A stretch of DNA of 54,594 nucleotides from a virus. This document shows positions 302-54,594 of the stretch, piece after piece. The notes under the pieces were generated by a model that saw only the letters and a list, made by a program, of their open reading frames with translations, was not told the DNA's origin and made no database searches. Every line of letters begins with the position of its first letter. The first letter of the stretch is position 1. The stretch is taken from the IMG/VR virus record IMGVR_UViG_3300050821_003470, positions 1 through 54,594 of that record. The stretch is one strand, 5' to 3'. The position numbers and the translations under genes are program-made.

Positions 302-519
302 ACCCTTCAGTCGAGAAGGACCGGGCCGAGTTACTTTGTCGCCTGAATCAGACCTTGGCGCATTGGGACCTGGCCCGATACTCGGATAATCCAAGGGTGA
401 AAGAACGGGCGCTAGACGCGGCCTTCGATGCGATGGCTACGGCAGGTAAGTTTAATCGCCGCTGGCCCGAGTTGGCGATTCTAGCGTGTGGTGCTATGAT
501 AAAGGTCGCGGGCGAGTAG
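298..519 (+). other. Open -1 frame after the scaffold stop; frameshift extension or small gene
   Basis: The frame one base behind the scaffold frame stays open from the scaffold TAG to a TAG at 517-519. It encodes a helical, charged sequence (for example VEKDRAELLCRLNQTLAHW) that looks like real protein. There is no ATG or GTG early in it; the first TTG is at 355, giving 54 aa. Either the scaffold is extended by a -1 slip at its CCG-TAG end, or a short gene starts at 355. It runs through the tRNA-fMet promoter and into the tRNA. The frame is seen directly; expression is inference. Confidence 0.35.
472..500 (+). promoter_or_regulatory. Promoter of tRNA-fMet
   Basis: A -35 TTGGCG (472-477), 17-nt spacer and -10 TATGAT (495-500) preceded by TG at 492-493 (extended -10). 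The expected start site, seven bases after the -10, is 507, the first base of the mature tRNA. Confidence 0.7.
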
Positions 520-582
520 GCTAGCTAATACGTCGGGCTCATAACCCGAAGGACGGGCGTGCAAATCCCCGGCCCGCCTCCA
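507..582 (+). tRNA. Initiator tRNA-fMet (CAT)
   Basis: A 76-nt cloverleaf with encoded CCA and loop CTCATAA. It has both bacterial initiator hallmarks: three consecutive G-C pairs at the base of the anticodon stem (CGGG/CCCG) and an unpaired 1-72 position (C1 opposite C72). It is the only tRNA on the plus strand and lies far from no other tRNA: the array starts about 600 bp downstream in the opposite orientation. Its promoter puts +1 at its first base, so RNase P trimming may be unnecessary. The T-loop (TGCAAAT) departs from consensus, and one or two T-stem pairs are weak. Confidence 0.88.
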
Positions 583-587
583 ATTGA

Positions 588-616
588 GAAGAACGCCCTT
601 AAGTGAGGCGTTCTTC
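588..616. terminator. Convergent hairpin between tRNA-fMet and HNH gene
   Basis: Perfect 10-bp stem (588-597 with 607-616) and 9-nt loop, just after the tRNA and overlapping the last codons of the minus-strand HNH gene. There is no clear U-tract on either strand, so it may act as an RNA 3'-end structure or a weak bidirectional terminator. Confidence 0.5.
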
Positions 617-1150
617 GATGCTGAGTTCTCCGAGTATAAACTGCTTCCACTCGTGCGGCATGGTCGTCCGCTTGATGACCACCCACGGGATATAGCTAGG
701 GACGTGGAGCTTGTGGCGCAGCGCCATCCCAGCCTCTTGGGGGGTCCGATCGCGCTTCCGGGAGTTACACCCTTCACAGCAGGCCGCGAGATTCAACCAG
801 GTAGACTTACCGCCCCGAGACTTGGGAACAACGTGGTCTACCGTCAACGTCGCCGCGTCACCGCTCGTAGAGCAATAGCCGCACTGGAAGTTATCCCGTA
901 GAAGGACGTTCCTCTTTGTTAGGGTGACACCGCGTTTCCGGTGCGTGATGTAGTAGAGCATCCGAATGACCGAGGGCATTGGGAACTCGATTATCTTCTT
1001 GGTAACACGGTTGCCGGCGGAATGCAGTAGCGAGCCGTTGTCGTAGAGGACTTCGGCCTTCTGGGAAAACAAGAGCCGCACCGCACGTTGCAACGATACA
1101 ACGCCCAACGGCTCATAGCTCGTATTGAGCAGCAGGACCGAACTGGTCAC
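599..1150 (-). CDS. HNH endonuclease
   Basis: A 183-aa protein. The N-terminal half (VLLLNTSYEPLGVVSLQRAV) and the C-terminal zinc-bound HNH core (CGYC near residue 90, VDHVVPKSRGG, then CEGCNSRK) match stand-alone HNH nucleases widespread in phages and in Actinobacteria/Chloroflexi-type genomes. It probably cuts or nicks double-stranded DNA, either as a homing enzyme or as a packaging helper. The GTG start is supported by AAGGAGG seven bases upstream. It lies directly downstream of the tRNA array on the same strand and could be the last gene of that transcript; its 3' end meets the tRNA-fMet hairpin. Confidence 0.9.
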   Translation of the reverse strand: MTSSVLLLNTSYEPLGVVSLQRAVRLLFSQKAEVLYDNGSLLHSAGNRVTKKIIEFPMPSVIRMLYYITHRKRGVTLTKRNVLLRDNFQCGYCSTSGDAATLTVDHVVPKSRGGKSTWLNLAACCEGCNSRKRDRTPQEAGMALRHKLHVPSYIPWVVIKRTTMPHEWKQFILGELSIEERLT

Positions 1151-1173
1151 GGTGTCACCTCCTTATCACAAAA

Positions 1174-1247
1174 TGGTGCGAGTTCGGGGAATCGAACCCC
1201 GGTCTGCACGTTGGAAGCGTGCGGTCCTACCACTGAATGAAACTCGC
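1174..1247 (-). tRNA. tRNA-Gly (TCC)
   Basis: Anticodon stem CGCAC-type with loop CTTCCAA, acceptor GCGAGTT/AACTCGC, encoded CCA. Reads GGA and, by wobble, GGG. Last tRNA of the array in transcription order. Confidence 0.93.
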
Positions 1248-1248
1248 G

Positions 1249-1322
1249 TGGTGCGGGTTGCCAGAATTGAACTGGCGGCTTCGACTTGGCACGCCGACAT
1301 ATTACCACTATACGAAACCCGC
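1249..1322 (-). tRNA. tRNA-Gly (GCC)
   Basis: Anticodon stem TCGGC/GTCGA with one G-T pair, loop GTGCCAA, acceptor GCGGGTT/AACCCGC, encoded CCA. One nucleotide from its neighbour. Confidence 0.9.
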
Positions 1323-1323
1323 A

Positions 1324-1397
1324 TGGTCCCCAGCAGGCGAATCGAACACCTGTAATCAGTTTGTAGGACTGACGTTCTCCCATTGAACTAGCCGGGG
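1324..1397 (-). tRNA. tRNA-Val (TAC) with C33
   Basis: Stem TCAGT/ACTGA fixes the loop as CCTACAA, giving anticodon TAC but C instead of the near-universal U at position 33. Acceptor CCCCGGC/GCTGGGG, encoded CCA. Only valine tRNA seen. It touches the next tRNA with no spacer. Confidence 0.8.
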
Positions 1398-1471
1398 TGG
1401 TCCTCCCGAGAAGAATCGAACTTCTGTTTCTTGCTTATCGGGCAAGTGCTTTGCCATTAAGCGACGAGAGG
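1398..1471 (-). tRNA. tRNA-Ile (GAT) with C33
   Basis: Stem CTTGC/GCAAG fixes loop CCGATAA: anticodon GAT with C at position 33. Acceptor CCTCTCG/CGGGAGG, encoded CCA. Zero-nt spacing from the valine tRNA. Confidence 0.82.
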
Positions 1472-1472
1472 T

Positions 1473-1546
1473 TGGTATCGCGTGCGGGAATCGAACCCGC
1501 GTTGTCGCGCTGAGAACGCGATTGCCTGCCATTAGCAGAACGCGAC
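1473..1546 (-). tRNA. tRNA-Glu (CTC)
   Basis: Stem TCGCG/CGCGA, loop TTCTCAG, acceptor GTCGCGT/ACGCGAT, encoded CCA. Reads GAG. The discriminator is A, while G is usual for Glu. Confidence 0.9.
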
Positions 1547-1547
1547 G

Positions 1548-1622
1548 TGGTAGCCCGTGAGAGTTTCGATCTCTCTTCGCGGCCTTGAAAGGGCCGCATC
1601 CTAGCCACTAGACGAACGGGCC
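1548..1622 (-). tRNA. tRNA-Glu (TTC)
   Basis: Stem CGGCC/GGCCG, loop CTTTCAA, encoded CCA. The T-loop reads ATCGAAA rather than TTCGAAA. Confidence 0.9.
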
Positions 1623-1623
1623 G

Positions 1624-1698
1624 TGGCGCTCTCGGCGGGTGCTGACCCCGCACCGTCGCCGTGACAAGGCGATATGCAGACCGCTACAACACGAGAGC
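1624..1698 (-). tRNA. tRNA-Asp (GTC)
   Basis: Stem TCGCC/GGCGA, loop TTGTCAC, acceptor GCTCTCG/CGAGAGC, G73 (an Asp identity base), encoded CCA. T-loop GTCAGCA is non-canonical. Confidence 0.88.
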
Positions 1699-1700
1699 AT

Positions 1701-1789
1701 TGGAGGGGGGTGAGTCGCATCGAACGCTTGACCCTCGCGGGTCACTACTGCTTTCAAGGCAGTTTGAGGAGCCAACCTCAGCACCCCCC
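1701..1789 (-). tRNA. tRNA-Ser (TGA)
   Basis: Class II tRNA of 89 nt with a long variable arm. Stem ACTGC/GCAGT, loop CTTGAAA, acceptor GGGGGGT/ACCCCCC, encoded CCA. Confidence 0.92.
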
Positions 1790-1790
1790 G

Positions 1791-1862
1791 TGGAGCCCTA
1801 CGTCGGAATCGAACCGACCCGCTGCGCGATACAAACGCGCTCCGCTCTCAGAGCTATAGGGC
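1791..1862 (-). tRNA. tRNA-Thr (TGT)
   Basis: Stem GCGCG/CGCGC, loop TTTGTAT, acceptor GCCCTAT/GTAGGGC, encoded CCA. Reads ACA. Confidence 0.92.
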
Positions 1863-1863
1863 A

Positions 1864-1939
1864 TGGAGCCGATGACGCGAGTCGAACGCGCTACGTCCTG
1901 ATTACGAAACAGGCCCTCGTCCTCACGAGGAACATCGGC
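1864..1939 (-). tRNA. tRNA-Thr (CGT)
   Basis: Loop TTCGTAA in stem CCTGT/TCAGG with a T-T mismatch next to the loop. Acceptor GCCGATG/CATCGGC, encoded CCA. Reads ACG. Confidence 0.88.
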
Positions 1940-1940
1940 G

Positions 1941-2016
1941 TGGAGACTCTGGGGTGAATCGAACACCGCTAGAAAACCGCTTTGCAGGCGGCTCACCTAC
2001 CATTGGCTTCAGAGTC
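1941..2016 (-). tRNA. tRNA-Cys (GCA)
   Basis: Stem GCCGC/GCGGT, loop CTGCAAA, U73 (Cys identity), acceptor GACTCTG/CAGAGTC, encoded CCA. Confidence 0.92.
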
Positions 2017-2017
2017 A

Positions 2018-2093
2018 TGGTGCCTTCACTGGGACTCGAACCCAGGTCTTACTGCTTAAGAGGCAGCTATTCTCGCCACTGAACTATGAAGGC
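2018..2093 (-). tRNA. tRNA-Lys (CTT)
   Basis: Stem GCTGC/GCAGT, loop CTCTTAA, acceptor GCCTTCA/TGAAGGC, A73, encoded CCA. Confidence 0.93.
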
Positions 2094-2094
2094 T

Positions 2095-2168
2095 TGGCTC
2101 CTCGGGCTCGATTCGAACGAACGTGACCTGCTTCAGAGGCAGGCATCCTACCGTTAGATGACCGAGGA
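2095..2168 (-). tRNA. tRNA-Gln (CTG)
   Basis: Stem CCTGC/GCAGG, loop CTCTGAA, acceptor TCCTCGG/CCGAGGA, encoded CCA. Reads CAG. Confidence 0.92.
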
Positions 2169-2169
2169 A

Positions 2170-2245
2170 TGGTGCCCGCCCAGGGGCTCGAACCCTGACT
2201 TTTCGGCTTAAAAGGCCAACTGTCTGCCTCTCGACTTCGACGGGC
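2170..2245 (-). tRNA. tRNA-Lys (TTT)
   Basis: Stem TTGGC/GCCGA, loop CTTTTAA, acceptor GCCCGTC/GGCGGGC, encoded CCA. Confidence 0.92.
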
Positions 2246-2246
2246 A

Positions 2247-2320
2247 TGGTTCCGAGGGATAGACTCGAACTATCGTCTGAGCTTTCAAAGAGCCCGGTCC
2301 TGCCATTGAACGACCTCGGA
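2247..2320 (-). tRNA. tRNA-Gln (TTG)
   Basis: Stem GGGCT/AGCTC, loop CTTTGAA, acceptor TCCGAGG/CCTCGGA, encoded CCA. Confidence 0.92.
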
Positions 2321-2321
2321 A

Positions 2322-2396
2322 TGGACTCCCCGGCGAGAGTTGAACTCGCGGCCTTCAGGTTCGGAACCTGACGCGCTTCCGCTGCGCTACGGGGAG
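2322..2396 (-). tRNA. tRNA-Arg (CCG)
   Basis: Stem TCAGG/CCTGA, loop TTCCGAA, acceptor CTCCCCG/CGGGGAG, encoded CCA. Reads CGG. Confidence 0.92.
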
Positions 2397-2397
2397 A

Positions 2398-2471
2398 TGG
2401 TCGGGGTACAGGGAGTTCAACCCTGGATAAATGCTCCCAAAGCACTCGTGTTAGCGTTACACTACACCCCG
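2398..2471 (-). tRNA. tRNA-Pro (TGG)
   Basis: Loop TTTGGGA in stem AGTGC/GCATT. It has the bacterial Pro pair C1-G72 with A73 and an encoded CCA. Confidence 0.9.
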
Positions 2472-2473
2472 AA

Positions 2474-2547
2474 TGGAGCCCTTACGCCGGATTGAACGGC
2501 GGTCGTCGCGATACCAACGCGATGCTCTACCACTAAGCTATAAGGGC
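2474..2547 (-). tRNA. tRNA-Thr (GGT)
   Basis: Stem TCGCG/CGCGA, loop TTGGTAT, acceptor GCCCTTA/TAAGGGC, encoded CCA. Confidence 0.92.
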
Positions 2548-2548
2548 A

Positions 2549-2622
2549 TGGTCCCCGCGGCCGGATTCGAACCGACGTTTACGCGCTTAGAAGGCGCGCT
2601 GCTTTCCAGGTTGCTCGCGGGG
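2549..2622 (-). tRNA. tRNA-Arg (TCT)
   Basis: Stem CGCGC/GCGCG, loop CTTCTAA, acceptor CCCCGCG/CGCGGGG, encoded CCA. Directly abuts the next tRNA. Confidence 0.93.
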
Positions 2623-2696
2623 TGGTTCCCTCGGTGCGACTCGAACGCACATTGACGGTTTAGGAAACCGCTGTCTTTCCCTTTGACGACGAGGGC
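2623..2696 (-). tRNA. tRNA-Arg (CCT)
   Basis: Stem GCGGT/ACCGT, loop TTCCTAA, acceptor GCCCTCG/CGAGGGA with an apparent G1-A72 mismatch, encoded CCA. Zero-nt spacers on both sides. Confidence 0.9.
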
Positions 2697-2771
2697 TGGT
2701 CGGAGTAGGGTGAATTGAACACCCGACCTCTCGCTCCCGAAGCGAGCGCGTTGCCACTACGCTATACCCCG
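2697..2771 (-). tRNA. tRNA-Pro (CGG)
   Basis: Stem CTCGC/GCGAG, loop TTCGGGA, C1-G72 and A73 as in Pro tRNAs, encoded CCA. Reads CCG. Confidence 0.92.
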
Positions 2772-2772
2772 A

Positions 2773-2846
2773 TGGTACCTGCACGCCGAATCGAACGGCG
2801 GTGATGCGCTTATGAAACGCTCGTTCTGCCTTTGAACTATGCAGGC
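2773..2846 (-). tRNA. tRNA-Met elongator (CAT)
   Basis: Loop TTCATAA in stem AGCGT/GCGCA (A27-A43 unpaired), acceptor GCCTGCA/TGCAGGT, encoded CCA. It has no initiator G-C triplet. Could be a lysidine-type tRNA-Ile2, but AUA is already served by the TAT tRNA beside it, so Met is preferred. Confidence 0.82.
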
Positions 2847-2847
2847 G

Positions 2848-2947
2848 TGGGCCTCCGGGAGGGAATCGAACCCTCAATCAACCGCTAATCGGGCGGCCGT
2901 TTTTGCCTGCTTATAAGGCAGGGGTTTTACCGTTAAACTACCGGAGG
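2848..2947 (-). tRNA. tRNA-Ile-like (TAT), 100 nt, with a second anticodon-like arm
   Basis: Acceptor CCTCCGG/CCGGAGG, D-stem GTTT/AAAC, anticodon stem CCTGC/GCAGG with loop CTTATAA (anticodon TAT), T-arm GAGGG/CCCTC, encoded CCA. The variable region is about 30 nt instead of about 5. It contains a 5-bp stem (GCCGC/GCGGT) with a 7-nt loop CCGATTA, which mimics an anticodon arm with GAT in the middle. C73 is also unusual. The fold is seen in the sequence; charging identity is uncertain. Confidence 0.7.
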
Positions 2948-2949
2948 AA

Positions 2950-3038
2950 TGGTGTAGAGAGTTGGATTCGAACCAACGCGGCGCATTACACACTTCCGGG
3001 TTACAGCCGGACTCCTTCAGCCACTCGGACATCTCTAC
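2950..3038 (-). tRNA. tRNA-Tyr (GTA)
   Basis: Class II, 89 nt. Stem TCCGG/CCGGA, loop CTGTAAC, acceptor GTAGAGA/TCTCTAC, A73, encoded CCA. Confidence 0.93.
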
Positions 3039-3039
3039 A

Positions 3040-3116
3040 TGGTGCGGACGATAGGATTCGAACCTACACTACACAGGCTCTCGACCTGTTACCTCTGCCA
3101 GTTGGGTCACATCCGC
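3040..3116 (-). tRNA. tRNA with GAG anticodon (Leu codons), short variable loop, C33
   Basis: Stem ACAGG/CCTGT fixes loop TCGAGAG: anticodon GAG with C33. The variable loop is 5 nt, whereas bacterial Leu tRNAs are class II with a long arm. Acceptor GCGGATG/CGTCCGC, encoded CCA. By anticodon it reads CUU/CUC; which synthetase charges it is unclear. Confidence 0.75.
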
Positions 3117-3117
3117 A

Positions 3118-3194
3118 TGGTGCTCCACCCGCGATTCGAACGCGGACTACGCGGTTTTTGAAACCGCCGACTCTACCGATTGGCCTAGTGGAGC
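3118..3194 (-). tRNA. tRNA with CAA anticodon (Leu UUG), class I body
   Basis: Stem GCGGT/ACCGC, loop TTCAAAA, acceptor GCTCCAC/GTGGAGC, A73, G44-T45, short variable loop, encoded CCA. The body resembles a bacterial tRNA-Phe (usual loop TTGAAAA) in which G34 is C, so it would pair with UUG. Canonical Leu tRNAs have a long variable arm. Confidence 0.75.
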
Positions 3195-3195
3195 T

Positions 3196-3280
3196 TGGTA
3201 CCCAAGACAGGATTCGAACCTGCACGCCTCTAGGACGTTGCGTTCTAAGCGCAGTGCGTCTACCGTTCCGCCACTTGGGC
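3196..3280 (-). tRNA. tRNA-Leu (TAG)
   Basis: Class II with a variable-arm hairpin of about 14 nt, as expected for bacterial Leu. Loop CTTAGAA in stem CTGCG/CGCAA, acceptor GCCCAAG/CTTGGGT, encoded CCA. Confidence 0.92.
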
Positions 3281-3281
3281 T

Positions 3282-3357
3282 TGGTCCCGATCGCAAGATT
3301 CGAACTTGCACTTTGCGCCTTTTAAGGGCACCGCCTCTACCGTTGGGCTAGACCGGG
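3282..3357 (-). tRNA. tRNA with TAA anticodon (Leu UUA), class I body
   Basis: Stem GTGCC/GGCGC, loop CTTAAAA, acceptor CCCGGTC/GATCGGG, A73, 5-nt variable loop, encoded CCA. Third Leu-anticodon tRNA in the array lacking the long variable arm. Zero spacer to the Asn tRNA. Confidence 0.78.
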
Positions 3358-3432
3358 TGGCTCCTCGTCACCGACTCGAACGGCGCTTCGCAGGTTAACA
3401 GCCTGCCGTCTTACCTGATAGACGAACGAGGA
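3358..3432 (-). tRNA. tRNA-Asn (GTT)
   Basis: Stem GCAGG/CCTGC, loop CTGTTAA, acceptor TCCTCGT/ACGAGGA, G73, encoded CCA. Confidence 0.92.
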
Positions 3433-3433
3433 A

Positions 3434-3505
3434 TGGTGGATAGTACGAGAGTTGAACTCGTCCCGATTTGCTTGCAAGGCAAGTCTGCACCCCGGTGCCT
3501 TACCC
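3434..3505 (-). tRNA. tRNA-Ala (TGC), shortened D-arm
   Basis: Loop CTTGCAA (anticodon TGC), normal T-arm ACGAG/CTCGT, encoded CCA. The acceptor GGGTAAG/ACTATCC keeps the alanine identity wobble pair G3-U70 but has two mismatches near the base. About 4 nt are missing before the anticodon stem, leaving a compact GCAC/GTGC D-hairpin with a 4-nt loop. It may be functional or decaying. It is the only Ala tRNA. Confidence 0.65.
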
Positions 3506-3509
3506 ATAA

Positions 3510-3585
3510 TGGAACCCCCGCCGAGAATTAAACTCGGTGCCTCCTGGTTCGTAGCCAGGCGCTCTGTTCGATGAGCTACGGGGGC
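3510..3585 (-). tRNA. tRNA-Arg (ACG)
   Basis: Stem CCTGG/CCAGG, loop CTACGAA, acceptor GCCCCCG/CGGGGGT, encoded CCA. A34 needs host TadA to become inosine in order to read CGU/CGC/CGA. Confidence 0.92.
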
Positions 3586-3586
3586 G

Positions 3587-3661
3587 TGGTGGGACGACCG
3601 GATTTCGAGCCCGGCTAGTTGCGCCTTCAACGCAGCGCATCTCCTTCAATGCTTTCGTCCC
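3587..3661 (-). tRNA. tRNA-Phe (GAA)
   Basis: D-stem GCAT/ATGC, anticodon stem CTGCG/CGCAA, loop TTGAAGG, acceptor GGGACGA/TCGTCCC, A73, encoded CCA. T-loop CTCGAAA starts with C. Confidence 0.88.
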
Positions 3662-3667
3662 AAGAAA

Positions 3668-3753
3668 TGGCGGAGAGGCAGGTACTCGAAACCTTGACCC
3701 ATCAGGTCACGACGCCTTAGCAGGGCGCTCGGCCACCTCGGCCCGACCTCTCC
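3668..3753 (-). tRNA. tRNA-Ser (GCT)
   Basis: Class II, 86 nt. Stem GCGCC/GGCGT, loop CTGCTAA, acceptor GGAGAGG/CCTCTCC, G73 as in Ser tRNAs, encoded CCA. Confidence 0.93.
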
Positions 3754-3776
3754 AGACACTATTCAGTTTTCAAAGA

Positions 3777-3853
3777 TGGGGTAGACGACCAGACTCGAAC
3801 TGGCTTTCATCGGCTTCACAGGCCAACCGCGTACCGTAATGCGTCCGTCCACC
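3777..3853 (-). tRNA. tRNA-His (GTG)
   Basis: Stem TTGGC/GCCGA, loop CTGTGAA, acceptor GTGGACG/CGTCTAC. It encodes G-1 opposite C73, the His identity pair, plus CCA. A 23-nt gap, the largest in the array, separates it from Ser(GCT). Confidence 0.93.
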
Positions 3854-3854
3854 G

Positions 3855-3930
3855 TGGCATGCCAGCCGAGACTCGAACTCGGACTCTTCCGCTTTGGAGG
3901 CGGCGCGAGCACCCCACGCTCCCCTGGCAT
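3855..3930 (-). tRNA. tRNA-Trp (CCA)
   Basis: First tRNA of the array in transcription order. Loop CTCCAAA, acceptor ATGCCAG/CTGGCAT, G73, encoded CCA. Its 5' end lies 2 nt after the U-tract of the upstream terminator. Confidence 0.93.
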
Positions 3931-3932
3931 AT

Positions 3933-3966
3933 AAAAAAGGCTCCCCGGGTTTTCACTCGGAGAGCC
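3933..3966 (-). terminator. Rho-independent terminator of the glycosyltransferase unit
   Basis: On the minus strand, a 12-bp G+C-rich stem with one mismatch and a GAAA tetraloop (3966-3939) is followed by six T (3938-3933). It sits between the 42-aa gene and tRNA-Trp with no room for a promoter after it, so array transcription must involve read-through or a start inside or upstream of the hairpin. Confidence 0.8.
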
Positions 3967-4002
3967 TCTATGTCGAACGTCTTTGAGGTTTCTCTAAGCT
4001 AC

Positions 4003-4131
4003 TTACCCATCGTGTGACCGCGTGCGATTTCTTTGCGAGGTGGGCCACATATCAAAAGCTATCGCGGCACCGCAAATACCGTGATAACTCAGACCTGTCC
4101 CGACTCGCTTGGATTCCATCTCCGTCAGCAT
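4003..4131 (-). CDS. Small hypothetical protein (42 aa)
   Basis: The ATG is 6 nt after the glycosyltransferase stop, with GAGGA just upstream. The product starts MLTEMESKRVGTG and contains a short hydrophobic patch (GICGAAIAF). Not recognised. Its place between the glycosyltransferase and the terminator suggests co-transcription. Confidence 0.5.
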   Translation of the reverse strand: MLTEMESKRVGTGLSYHGICGAAIAFDMWPTSQRNRTRSHDG

Positions 4132-4137
4132 ACGTCC

Positions 4138-53255: not shown

Positions 53256-54594
53256 TGGCTACTAAGGGAAATGGGCCGCCGTCGCTATCCGACGTAAACG
53301 ACGAAGCACGCAAACTCGTTGAAAGAATAACTGCCCCCCAAACGCCCGCGGCTGAACTTCATGCCGAGCCGCTCGCTGCCCCGGTAACGCCGCAACTTCT
53401 ACCAGATTTCTCCCGCGGCACCGCAGCGCTCGATGACGAGACAGGCCAGCCTGTGGCCCCACGCCAAGCCGCCGAACTCCCCGTTGGAGACGCGGGCGGG
53501 ACGGTTGATGCGCTTGCGGATGCGAAGGCCGAGCTTTCGGGAACCCCTGATAAGGAGCGCGATGCTCAAGGGCGTTTCGTTTCCGAGGCGGCTGCTGATG
53601 TAAGCGATGCTCCCCAGGGTGCCACTCCAGCGGCACAGCCAACTGGAGAAGCCGCGGCTGAAGCCGTCGCGCAGGCCATCCTTGATAAGCCTGCCGAGGA
53701 TTTCGAGGACATCGAGTACGATGACGTAGACCTCGACAAGAAATTCACCGTGCGGGTACCGAAGGATGCTGCTGCGGCCGTTCGCAACGGCTATATGCGG
53801 CGCGCGGACTACTCGCGCAAAACGATGTTCCTAGGCGACCTTAGAAAGACCGTCGAGCCGCTTGTGGGCGATGGCAGGCTCAAAGCCATTTTGCCACTCA
53901 TTCAGAGAGCCTTAGAGGACCCGGAATACGGGAACTTCGTGGTGGACGCCTACAACCGGCGAATCGCTGGCAAGCCCCTCACTGAAGCCCAAGCCGCCGC
54001 CGCGCAAGCTGGAGCCGCCGTCGCTGCTGCTGCTCCGCCCGTTACGCCGCTCACCGAAGCGGAGGACCCATTCCTCGCAGACGCTCTCCGTCCGTACAAC
54101 GAAAAACTCGGACAGGTGACGAGCTTAGTCGAGCGGATGGCGAAGCAAGAAGAAGAGCGCAACGCCCAAGAAACCGCCGCCCGCCAGCAGTACGAGCATC
54201 GAGTCAACGTTGGTAACCAGGGTTACGCTTTGCTCACTCAACGCTACAGCGACGAGTTCTCTGGGAACCCGGATAAAGACAAAGACTCGTTCATGCGAGC
54301 GGTCAACTACGGGCGGGCTTCTGGGCTATTCGATGCCTACGGTGAGAGCCCAGCAACCATCGTTCTGGCTTACGAGGACTTGAGAAGGGAGCGGGAAGCC
54401 GCTTCTGCCTCCCCAGCCGTCGCAGCCGTGAACGCCGCTACTGAGCGAAAGGTGGCCGCATCAAACGCTGCTGCTGTATCGGCTGGCACCCCGGCGTCAC
54501 CTCCTCAAAGAAAGACCGTTCCCCCGCCGCCGGCAACCAGGGTCAACGGTGTGGCAGCCGACCCGAAGGACTACTTACGTCAAGCGTTACAACG
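53255..54594 (+). CDS. Scaffold protein (3' end continues at position 280)
   Basis: 446 codons to the window edge. N-terminal 150 aa are Ala/Pro/Asp-rich; IEYDDVDLDKKFTVRVPKDA and RRADYSRKTMFLG mark a conserved segment typical of phage scaffold/protease-region proteins; residues 280-330 form a coiled coil (YNEKLGQVTSLVERMAKQEE). Ends Ala/Pro-rich with a basic tail in the left copy at 280-301. Location between portal and capsid (through the circle) supports scaffolding. Confidence 0.75.
   Translation, partial: MATKGNGPPSLSDVNDEARKLVERITAPQTPAAELHAEPLAAPVTPQLLPDFSRGTAALDDETGQPVAPRQAAELPVGDAGGTVDALADAKAELSGTPDKERDAQGRFVSEAAADVSDAPQGATPAAQPTGEAAAEAVAQAILDKPAEDFEDIEYDDVDLDKKFTVRVPKDAAAAVRNGYMRRADYSRKTMFLGDLRKTVEPLVGDGRLKAILPLIQRALEDPEYGNFVVDAYNRRIAGKPLTEAQAAAAQAGAAVAAAAPPVTPLTEAEDPFLADALRPYNEKLGQVTSLVERMAKQEEERNAQETAARQQYEHRVNVGNQGYALLTQRYSDEFSGNPDKDKDSFMRAVNYGRASGLFDAYGESPATIVLAYEDLRREREAASASPAVAAVNAATERKVAASNAAAVSAGTPASPPQRKTVPPPPATRVNGVAADPKDYLRQALQ
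54316..54594. repeat. Terminal repeat, right copy (circular overlap)
   Basis: Matches 1-279; the last 98 bases are identical to 182-279. See the left copy. Confidence 0.85.

Follow-up and report, generated by a model that had tools for sequence, protein, structure and literature searches.

The window analysed here is the whole of IMG/VR virus record IMGVR_UViG_3300050821_003470 (54,594 nt), a phage genome that carries an inserted cassette at approximately 482-4137, made up of an initiator-tRNA-like sequence, an HNH endonuclease gene, an array of 35 minus-strand tRNA genes and a leader hairpin. Judged by tRNA order and HNH phylogeny, this cassette is homologous to an island in the chromosomes of Eremiobacterota and to the array of another virus. 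We consider it probable that it serves as a mobile reserve of elongator tRNAs, which would protect translation when tRNAs are cleaved.

ARAGORN called 32 tRNA genes in the window, all on the minus strand within 1174-3930, and 27 tRNAs scored above the gathering threshold of Rfam RF00005, including a tRNA-Ile(TAT) without an ARAGORN call. This gene, together with Ser(TGA) and Ala(TGC), recognised by covariance model, fold or synteny, brings the total to 35, which agrees in number and anticodons with the minus-strand set listed in the first-pass annotation. Of the checks proposed there, ARAGORN bore out 32 genes and covariance scoring 27, with Trp (24.5 bits), Ala(TGC) and the proposed initiator (21.9 bits) among those below threshold. 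Ser(TGA) reaches 41.3 bits with the tRNA-Sec model, for which the cut-off is 47; its predicted fold is a complete cloverleaf whose acceptor has 8 bp (fold z = -3.2), and it is syntenic with the Ser(TGA) of other arrays. Ala(TGC) falls under every covariance cut-off and folds no better than shuffled sequences; its G3:U70 pair, A73 and CCA are all kept, its acceptor is imperfect, and its position in the order is that of Ala(TGC) in at least five homologous arrays. CCA is encoded in all 35 genes, the spacers measure 0-2 nt in 31 of 34 cases, and the density is 12.7 tRNA/kb. Cloverleaf scores exceed those of shuffles (in 33 genes z lies in the range 5-11, and it is 3.9 for Ser(TGA) and 5.3 for Ala(TGC)), and therefore the array is not a chance arrangement.

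In window coordinates, and with support from both ARAGORN and Rfam unless indicated here or above, the minus-strand genes run from Gly(TCC) (1174-1247), Gly(GCC) (1249-1322), Val(TAC) (1324-1397), Ile(GAT) (1398-1471), Glu(CTC) (1473-1546) and Glu(TTC) (1548-1622) to Asp(GTC) (1624-1698), which has an unusual T loop, GTCAGCA, and is also backed by its cloverleaf score. Ser(TGA) (1701-1789) follows, and then three genes called by ARAGORN alone, Thr(TGT) with a short D arm (1791-1862), Thr(CGT) (1864-1939) and Cys(GCA) (1941-2016). The series continues with Lys(CTT) (2018-2093), Gln(CTG) (2095-2168), Lys(TTT) (2170-2245), Gln(TTG) (2247-2320), Arg(CCG) (2322-2396), Pro(TGG) (2398-2471), Thr(GGT) (2474-2547), Arg(TCT) (2549-2622), Arg(CCT) (2623-2696), Pro(CGG) (2697-2771) and the elongator Met(CAT) (2773-2846). 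Next to these lies Ile(TAT) (2848-2947; Rfam 58.7 bits), with a 30-nt variable arm and the hairpin loop CCGATTA, followed by Tyr(GTA) (2950-3038) and the four Leu genes: GAG (3040-3116), with C33 in place of U33, CAA (3118-3194), TAG (3196-3280) and TAA (3282-3357). Leu(TAG) is class II and the other three, for which the cloverleaf score gives additional support, are class I, lacking the long variable arm. Asn(GTT) (3358-3432), Ala(TGC) (3434-3504; 5' end approximate, D arm reduced), Arg(ACG) (3510-3585) and, by ARAGORN alone, Phe(GAA) (3587-3661) and Ser(GCT) (3668-3753) precede His(GTG) (3777-3852), in which the encoded G-1 (3853) and C73 are retained, and Trp(CCA) (3855-3930; ARAGORN, with its Rfam score below cut-off).

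These anticodons cover 20 amino acids, Ala resting on the synteny and identity elements of Ala(TGC). Under established wobble rules, reading all sense codons requires a single U34 tRNA to decode all four codons of each of the Val, Ala and Ser(UCN) boxes, and A34 of Arg(ACG) to be converted to inosine. Given such wobble, the complete decoding set claimed in the first-pass annotation holds for all sense codons, and a self-sufficient elongator set is supported; the claim that it extends to initiation through a tRNA-fMet is left doubtful. The sequence in question (507-582, plus strand) has a CAT anticodon, a GGG/CCC anticodon stem, a 1-72 mismatch and CCA. However, it scores under the Rfam cut-off of 29 and has no ARAGORN call, its D and T arms are poor, and its fold shows no excess over shuffles (z = -0.3). 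Directly upstream, a motif scan finds a promoter-like site with an extended -10 (TTGGCG-17-TATGAT, 472-500, plus strand; predicted start near 507), one of 2 such sites found against 1.7 expected by chance. As for the class I Leu tRNAs, they may be functional, because an Escherichia coli tRNA-Leu deprived of its long arm can still be leucylated given A73 and D-T loop contacts (PMC9976931).

The ends of the window (54317-54594 and 1-279) overlap over 278 bp at 94%, with a fully identical inner part, and therefore the phage is circular, with a genome of about 54.3 kb; the record is not marked circular, and the overlap points to strain variation. PHROGs and Pfam profiles identify a podovirus-like set (P22/SU10-type portal, SU10-type adaptor, terminase, capsid and scaffold); at E 1e-3, none of the open reading frames scanned belongs to a polymerase, helicase, primase or ligase family, as anticipated by the initial description of a phage of about 54 kb without replication genes. 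One open reading frame encodes a GroES-like co-chaperonin (Cpn10). The first 25 kb of the window gave no nucleotide match in the phage collection, and blastn at the tRNA level returned single tRNAs only, at about 74-84%. The portal had no match in the phage search, and TerL and the capsid protein had remote matches only; the host is therefore unreadable from phage relatives.

Nine contigs related through capsid or terminase (68-91% identity; some are fragments, several span the site) were searched, and none has a tRNA array. In the relatives L015 and L016, which are without the cassette, sequences matching the window up to ~360 and from ~4432 are separated by 395 bp; the comparison sets the approximate boundaries given above and defines a 3.7-kb insertion that includes the HNH gene. 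Both flanks in the window are phage sequence, with scaffold and glycosyltransferase genes, and neither direct nor inverted repeats were found at the cassette ends. Because nine relatives are without it, the array is evidently an insertion and not a property of this phage type. The only tRNA among these relatives is a lone 103-nt gene in phage G001 (24646-24748; L020 6947-7049), with a CTT anticodon read by eye, a different long variable arm and a short flanking direct repeat.

Bacterial counterparts were reached through the odd Ile(UAU) tRNA, by way of contig L296 from an Eremiobacterota metagenome-assembled genome (MAG). This contig is chromosomal in content and carries a syntenic array, with a homologue of the window HNH gene after it (gene names on the contig were assigned by eye from translations). 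Colinearity with the window extends to 27 of 27 tRNAs in island array L428 and 25 of 28 in L425, and to 21/28, 21/23, 20/23, 19/25, 14/18 and 13/13 in other island arrays, against at most 13 in shuffles and 6-9 in unrelated arrays. One island array sits on a 2.37-Mb contig, and the genomes that contain the island also hold ordinary scattered tRNAs (62 tRNAs in G010, 60 in G132 and 68 in G141). Between the window and the orthologous L428 array, 153 of 391 tRNA stem pairs have changed on both sides and are still paired, with 10 broken in the window only; these compensated pairs show that selection maintains tRNA structure in both arrays. Against the nearest copy among the compared sequences, the HNH protein is 62% identical and the tRNAs mostly 65-82%. 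By identity, window tRNAs show a mean difference of zero between the G010 array and ordinary tRNAs, and the homology signal lies in tRNA order rather than identity.

The HNH gene of the window (599-1150, minus strand; Pfam/PHROGs), at the 3' end of the array, provides a second line of evidence. Relatives (E 1e-25) occur in 127 of 149 Eremiobacterota genomes, and of the roughly 30 loci inspected the majority are tRNA-free core copies, while nine copies lie at the ends of tRNA arrays; since these arrays were found with the HNH query, the co-occurrence is partly by construction. A first search of viral contigs gave HNH relatives that were distant and array-free bar a few tRNAs. In the phylogenetic tree, rebuilt without the long branches that spoiled its first version, the array-linked HNHs, the window and virus G162 split from 22 core HNHs at 100/99, and the window is sister to the L428 HNH at 98/93, on a long branch. 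A shared order across replicons, a related HNH at the array and a second set beside ordinary tRNAs are the traits by which we recognise a mobile unit. Other arrays contain further HNH genes, and a DUF6847 protein gene lies inside Eremiobacterota arrays (L427:11899-12357, with a similar protein at L430:3813-4289).

The homologues of the cassette keep company with RNA-repair genes. In L428 the order is array, HNH, RtcB, HD, RlaP and tyrosine integrase. Within the phylum, 14 of the 149 genomes have RtcB; it is present in 6 of the 9 array genomes and adjacent to the array in five (Fisher 5e-6, using the 12 genomes with the strongest RtcB; the genomes are related, and the count covers arrays with this HNH). 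The related phage L013 carries rtcB, an RNA ligase gene, between the scaffold side and the glycosyltransferase, where the window has its array, and its product is 80.5% identical to the L428 RtcB (next best 64.6%); two phages of one group thus carry different parts of one island. Virus G162 (129 kb, with an exact terminal repeat of 127 bp) carries an array of 34 tRNAs, of which 21 are in window order, and, alongside it (L399), an array-type HNH, Ro60/TROVE, RlaP and a NUDIX/nucleotidyltransferase plus NAMPT pair. This pair resembles the genes with which phages restore NAD+ in the face of NAD-depleting defence systems, and the G162 gene set as a whole resembles an anti-defence island. Repair linkage, a supporting rather than strictly defining feature, takes the form of RtcB in L013 and beside five island arrays, and of RlaP in L428 and G162.

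In the scenario that we favour, the phage would carry array and HNH as a mobile cassette homologous to a tRNA-array/RNA-repair island. The array would be transcribed from the minus strand as a single precursor, cut at the CCA ends and charged by host synthetases, yielding a second complete elongator set. With their diverged bodies, and variable arms dropped or added, these tRNAs might escape nucleases that cleave host tRNAs, namely defence systems or toxins triggered by infection, and late proteins would still be made while host tRNAs are lost. The HNH would probably spread or maintain the cassette by homing, whereas its sister phage, having RtcB at this site, would rely on repair in place of replacement. 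Replacement of damaged tRNAs is the best supported function because the set is complete and not codon-biased and its homologues are linked to RtcB and RlaP. The first-pass annotation had suggested that the phage replaces host tRNAs degraded or shut off during infection; completeness and repair-gene linkage lend this partial support, whereas its attribution to this phage must give way to a cassette shared with Eremiobacterota islands and another virus.

Several observations weigh against this scenario. The window itself has neither RtcB nor RlaP, its cassette offering tRNAs and HNH only; Ala(TGC) is partly decayed; and the identity of 507-582 as an initiator tRNA is doubtful. A strong terminator-like hairpin with a T run (3931-3967, minus strand; fold z = -4.6) immediately upstream of the first tRNA clouds the position of an array promoter. 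Finally, we infer Eremiobacterota as the host phylum from the cassette, and the capsid protein matches 1 of 149 Eremiobacterota genomes, weakly.

Other explanations account for part of the data. The phage differs from sampled Eremiobacterota genes in GC content at third codon positions (GC3; 0.65 vs 0.78, with a codon usage correlation of 0.81) and has tRNAs reading AUA, UUA and AGA, as might be expected if the tRNAs were kept for codons rare in the host. Yet all amino acids and common codons are covered, codon usage is similar in a relative devoid of the array (r = 0.87, with a higher GC3 of 0.77), the chromosomes in which homologous arrays reside follow the codon usage of the cell itself, and the link to RNA-repair genes would be left unexplained; we therefore find codon compensation unlikely. 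Slightly less likely still is that a homing HNH drives the cassette as selfish cargo, the tRNAs being passengers or recombination targets of no help to the phage. It would fit the HNH at the array 3' end in window and islands alike, the HNH genes inside other arrays, and the scatter of the cassette over unrelated replicons with its absence from close relatives, but not the intact tRNA structures with their excess of compensated over broken pairs, the retained identity elements (His G-1/C73, Ala G3:U70) or the linkage to RtcB and RlaP. That the relatives are array-free and the cassette occurs in bacterial chromosomes could also betray a bacterial tRNA island joined to a phage contig during assembly. 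Such a chimera is very improbable in view of the phage genes on both flanks, the RtcB cargo of L013 at the same site, the low HNH and tRNA identities to the copies compared, and a second virus, G162, with the same cassette.

Within the preferred reading of a mobile back-up cassette, we tentatively suggest a further step, possible and on balance rather doubtful, in which the array supplies a further set for translation whose tRNA bodies have been rewired: Leu tRNAs that lack the long arm and long-arm Ile(UAU) tRNAs, recurrent and apparently undescribed types in phages and islands, would have been selected to escape nucleases while still being charged.

How does the cassette compare with known systems? 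The closest are the array units of Mycobacterium chromosomes, plasmids and cluster M/C/V phages (PMC5966550, PMC12803027), which likewise combine at least 20 clustered tRNAs for 19-20 amino acids, an order common to several replicons and a status extra to the ordinary set, and whose most widespread neighbour is an HNH endonuclease, as at the window array. The window differs in hosts, in order and in its 54-kb genome, and the RtcB/RlaP islands of Eremiobacterota do not figure in those papers. Cluster M mycobacteriophages reportedly pair a near-complete set with RtcB, proposed by Pope et al. in 2014 to offset degraded host tRNAs. In Anabaena sp. PCC 7120 the trn operon, a second set of 26 tRNAs on a plasmid, is induced by translational stress (PMC10272220); its repressor TrcR controls the array together with rtcB and an HNH gene, a gene company shared with the islands, although the operon is known from a cyanobacterial plasmid and not from a phage.

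The literature already describes phages whose tRNAs, altered at nuclease sites, take the place of cleaved host tRNAs, as in mycobacteriophage C1 (PMC10264068), and related cases are the T5 tRNA-Tyr against retron-Eco7 (PMC11555353) and the T6 tRNA-Tyr/SegB against Septu (PMC13096335), where SegB, a homing endonuclease beside the T6 tRNAs, is comparable to the window HNH. Those cases involve single tRNAs, experiments or anticodon-loop changes directed against known nucleases, whereas the window has a full set. Jumbo-phage RNA-repair sets combine tRNAs with RtcB, RlaP and TROVE, as do L428 and G162, in contrast to the tRNAs and HNH of the window (PMC7824862). A survey of viral tRNA clusters (at least 15 clustered tRNAs) found eight with all 20 isotypes, in genomes of 72-617 kb at about 2-10 tRNA/kb (PMC6409571); compared with that survey only, the window is smaller (54.3 kb) and denser (12.7 tRNA/kb). 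The array is a phage tRNA gene cluster by that survey's measure (15 or more tRNAs, with a density of at least 2 per kb) and has a complete isotype set. Clusters with all 20 isotypes and HNH array units are thus already known (PMC6409571, PMC5966550), and what is new here is the host group and the compactness.

Beyond the window, long-variable-arm Ile(UAU) tRNAs form a group of 132 distinct sequences, 95 viral and 37 from genomes (L054, L093, L114, L129, L137, L151, L161-L194 and others), with Ruegeria, Acidobacteria and Eremiobacterota MAGs among the bacterial genomes. At each of the four positions of the variable stem, 98-100% of the sequences form a pair, drawn from 2-5 pair types; when the register is shifted by one or two, pairing is mostly 10-63%, a few shifted positions reaching 70-83%. 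Most share the arm loop CAGATTA, of which the search pattern fixed only GATTA. In isolated phages these genes are annotated plainly as tRNA-Ile, and no description of the phage type was found in the literature searched; the nematode nev-tRNA-Ile(UAU), leucine-charged in vitro, is a parallel (PMC4300185). Among Leu tRNAs of viral tandem arrays, 68 of 129 (119 array loci) are without the long variable arm typical of bacterial tRNA-Leu.

Taken as a mobile unit, the cassette brings together a complete spare set of tRNAs, enzymes of RNA repair and an endonuclease of the homing type, which are commonly met separately, and moves between phages and the chromosomes of a little-studied phylum. Because a 54-kb phage in which no replication gene is recognised gives 5% of its genome to tRNAs, the question of why phages carry them becomes directly testable. 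Its sister phage, where RtcB occupies the array site, offers a natural comparison of replacement with repair.

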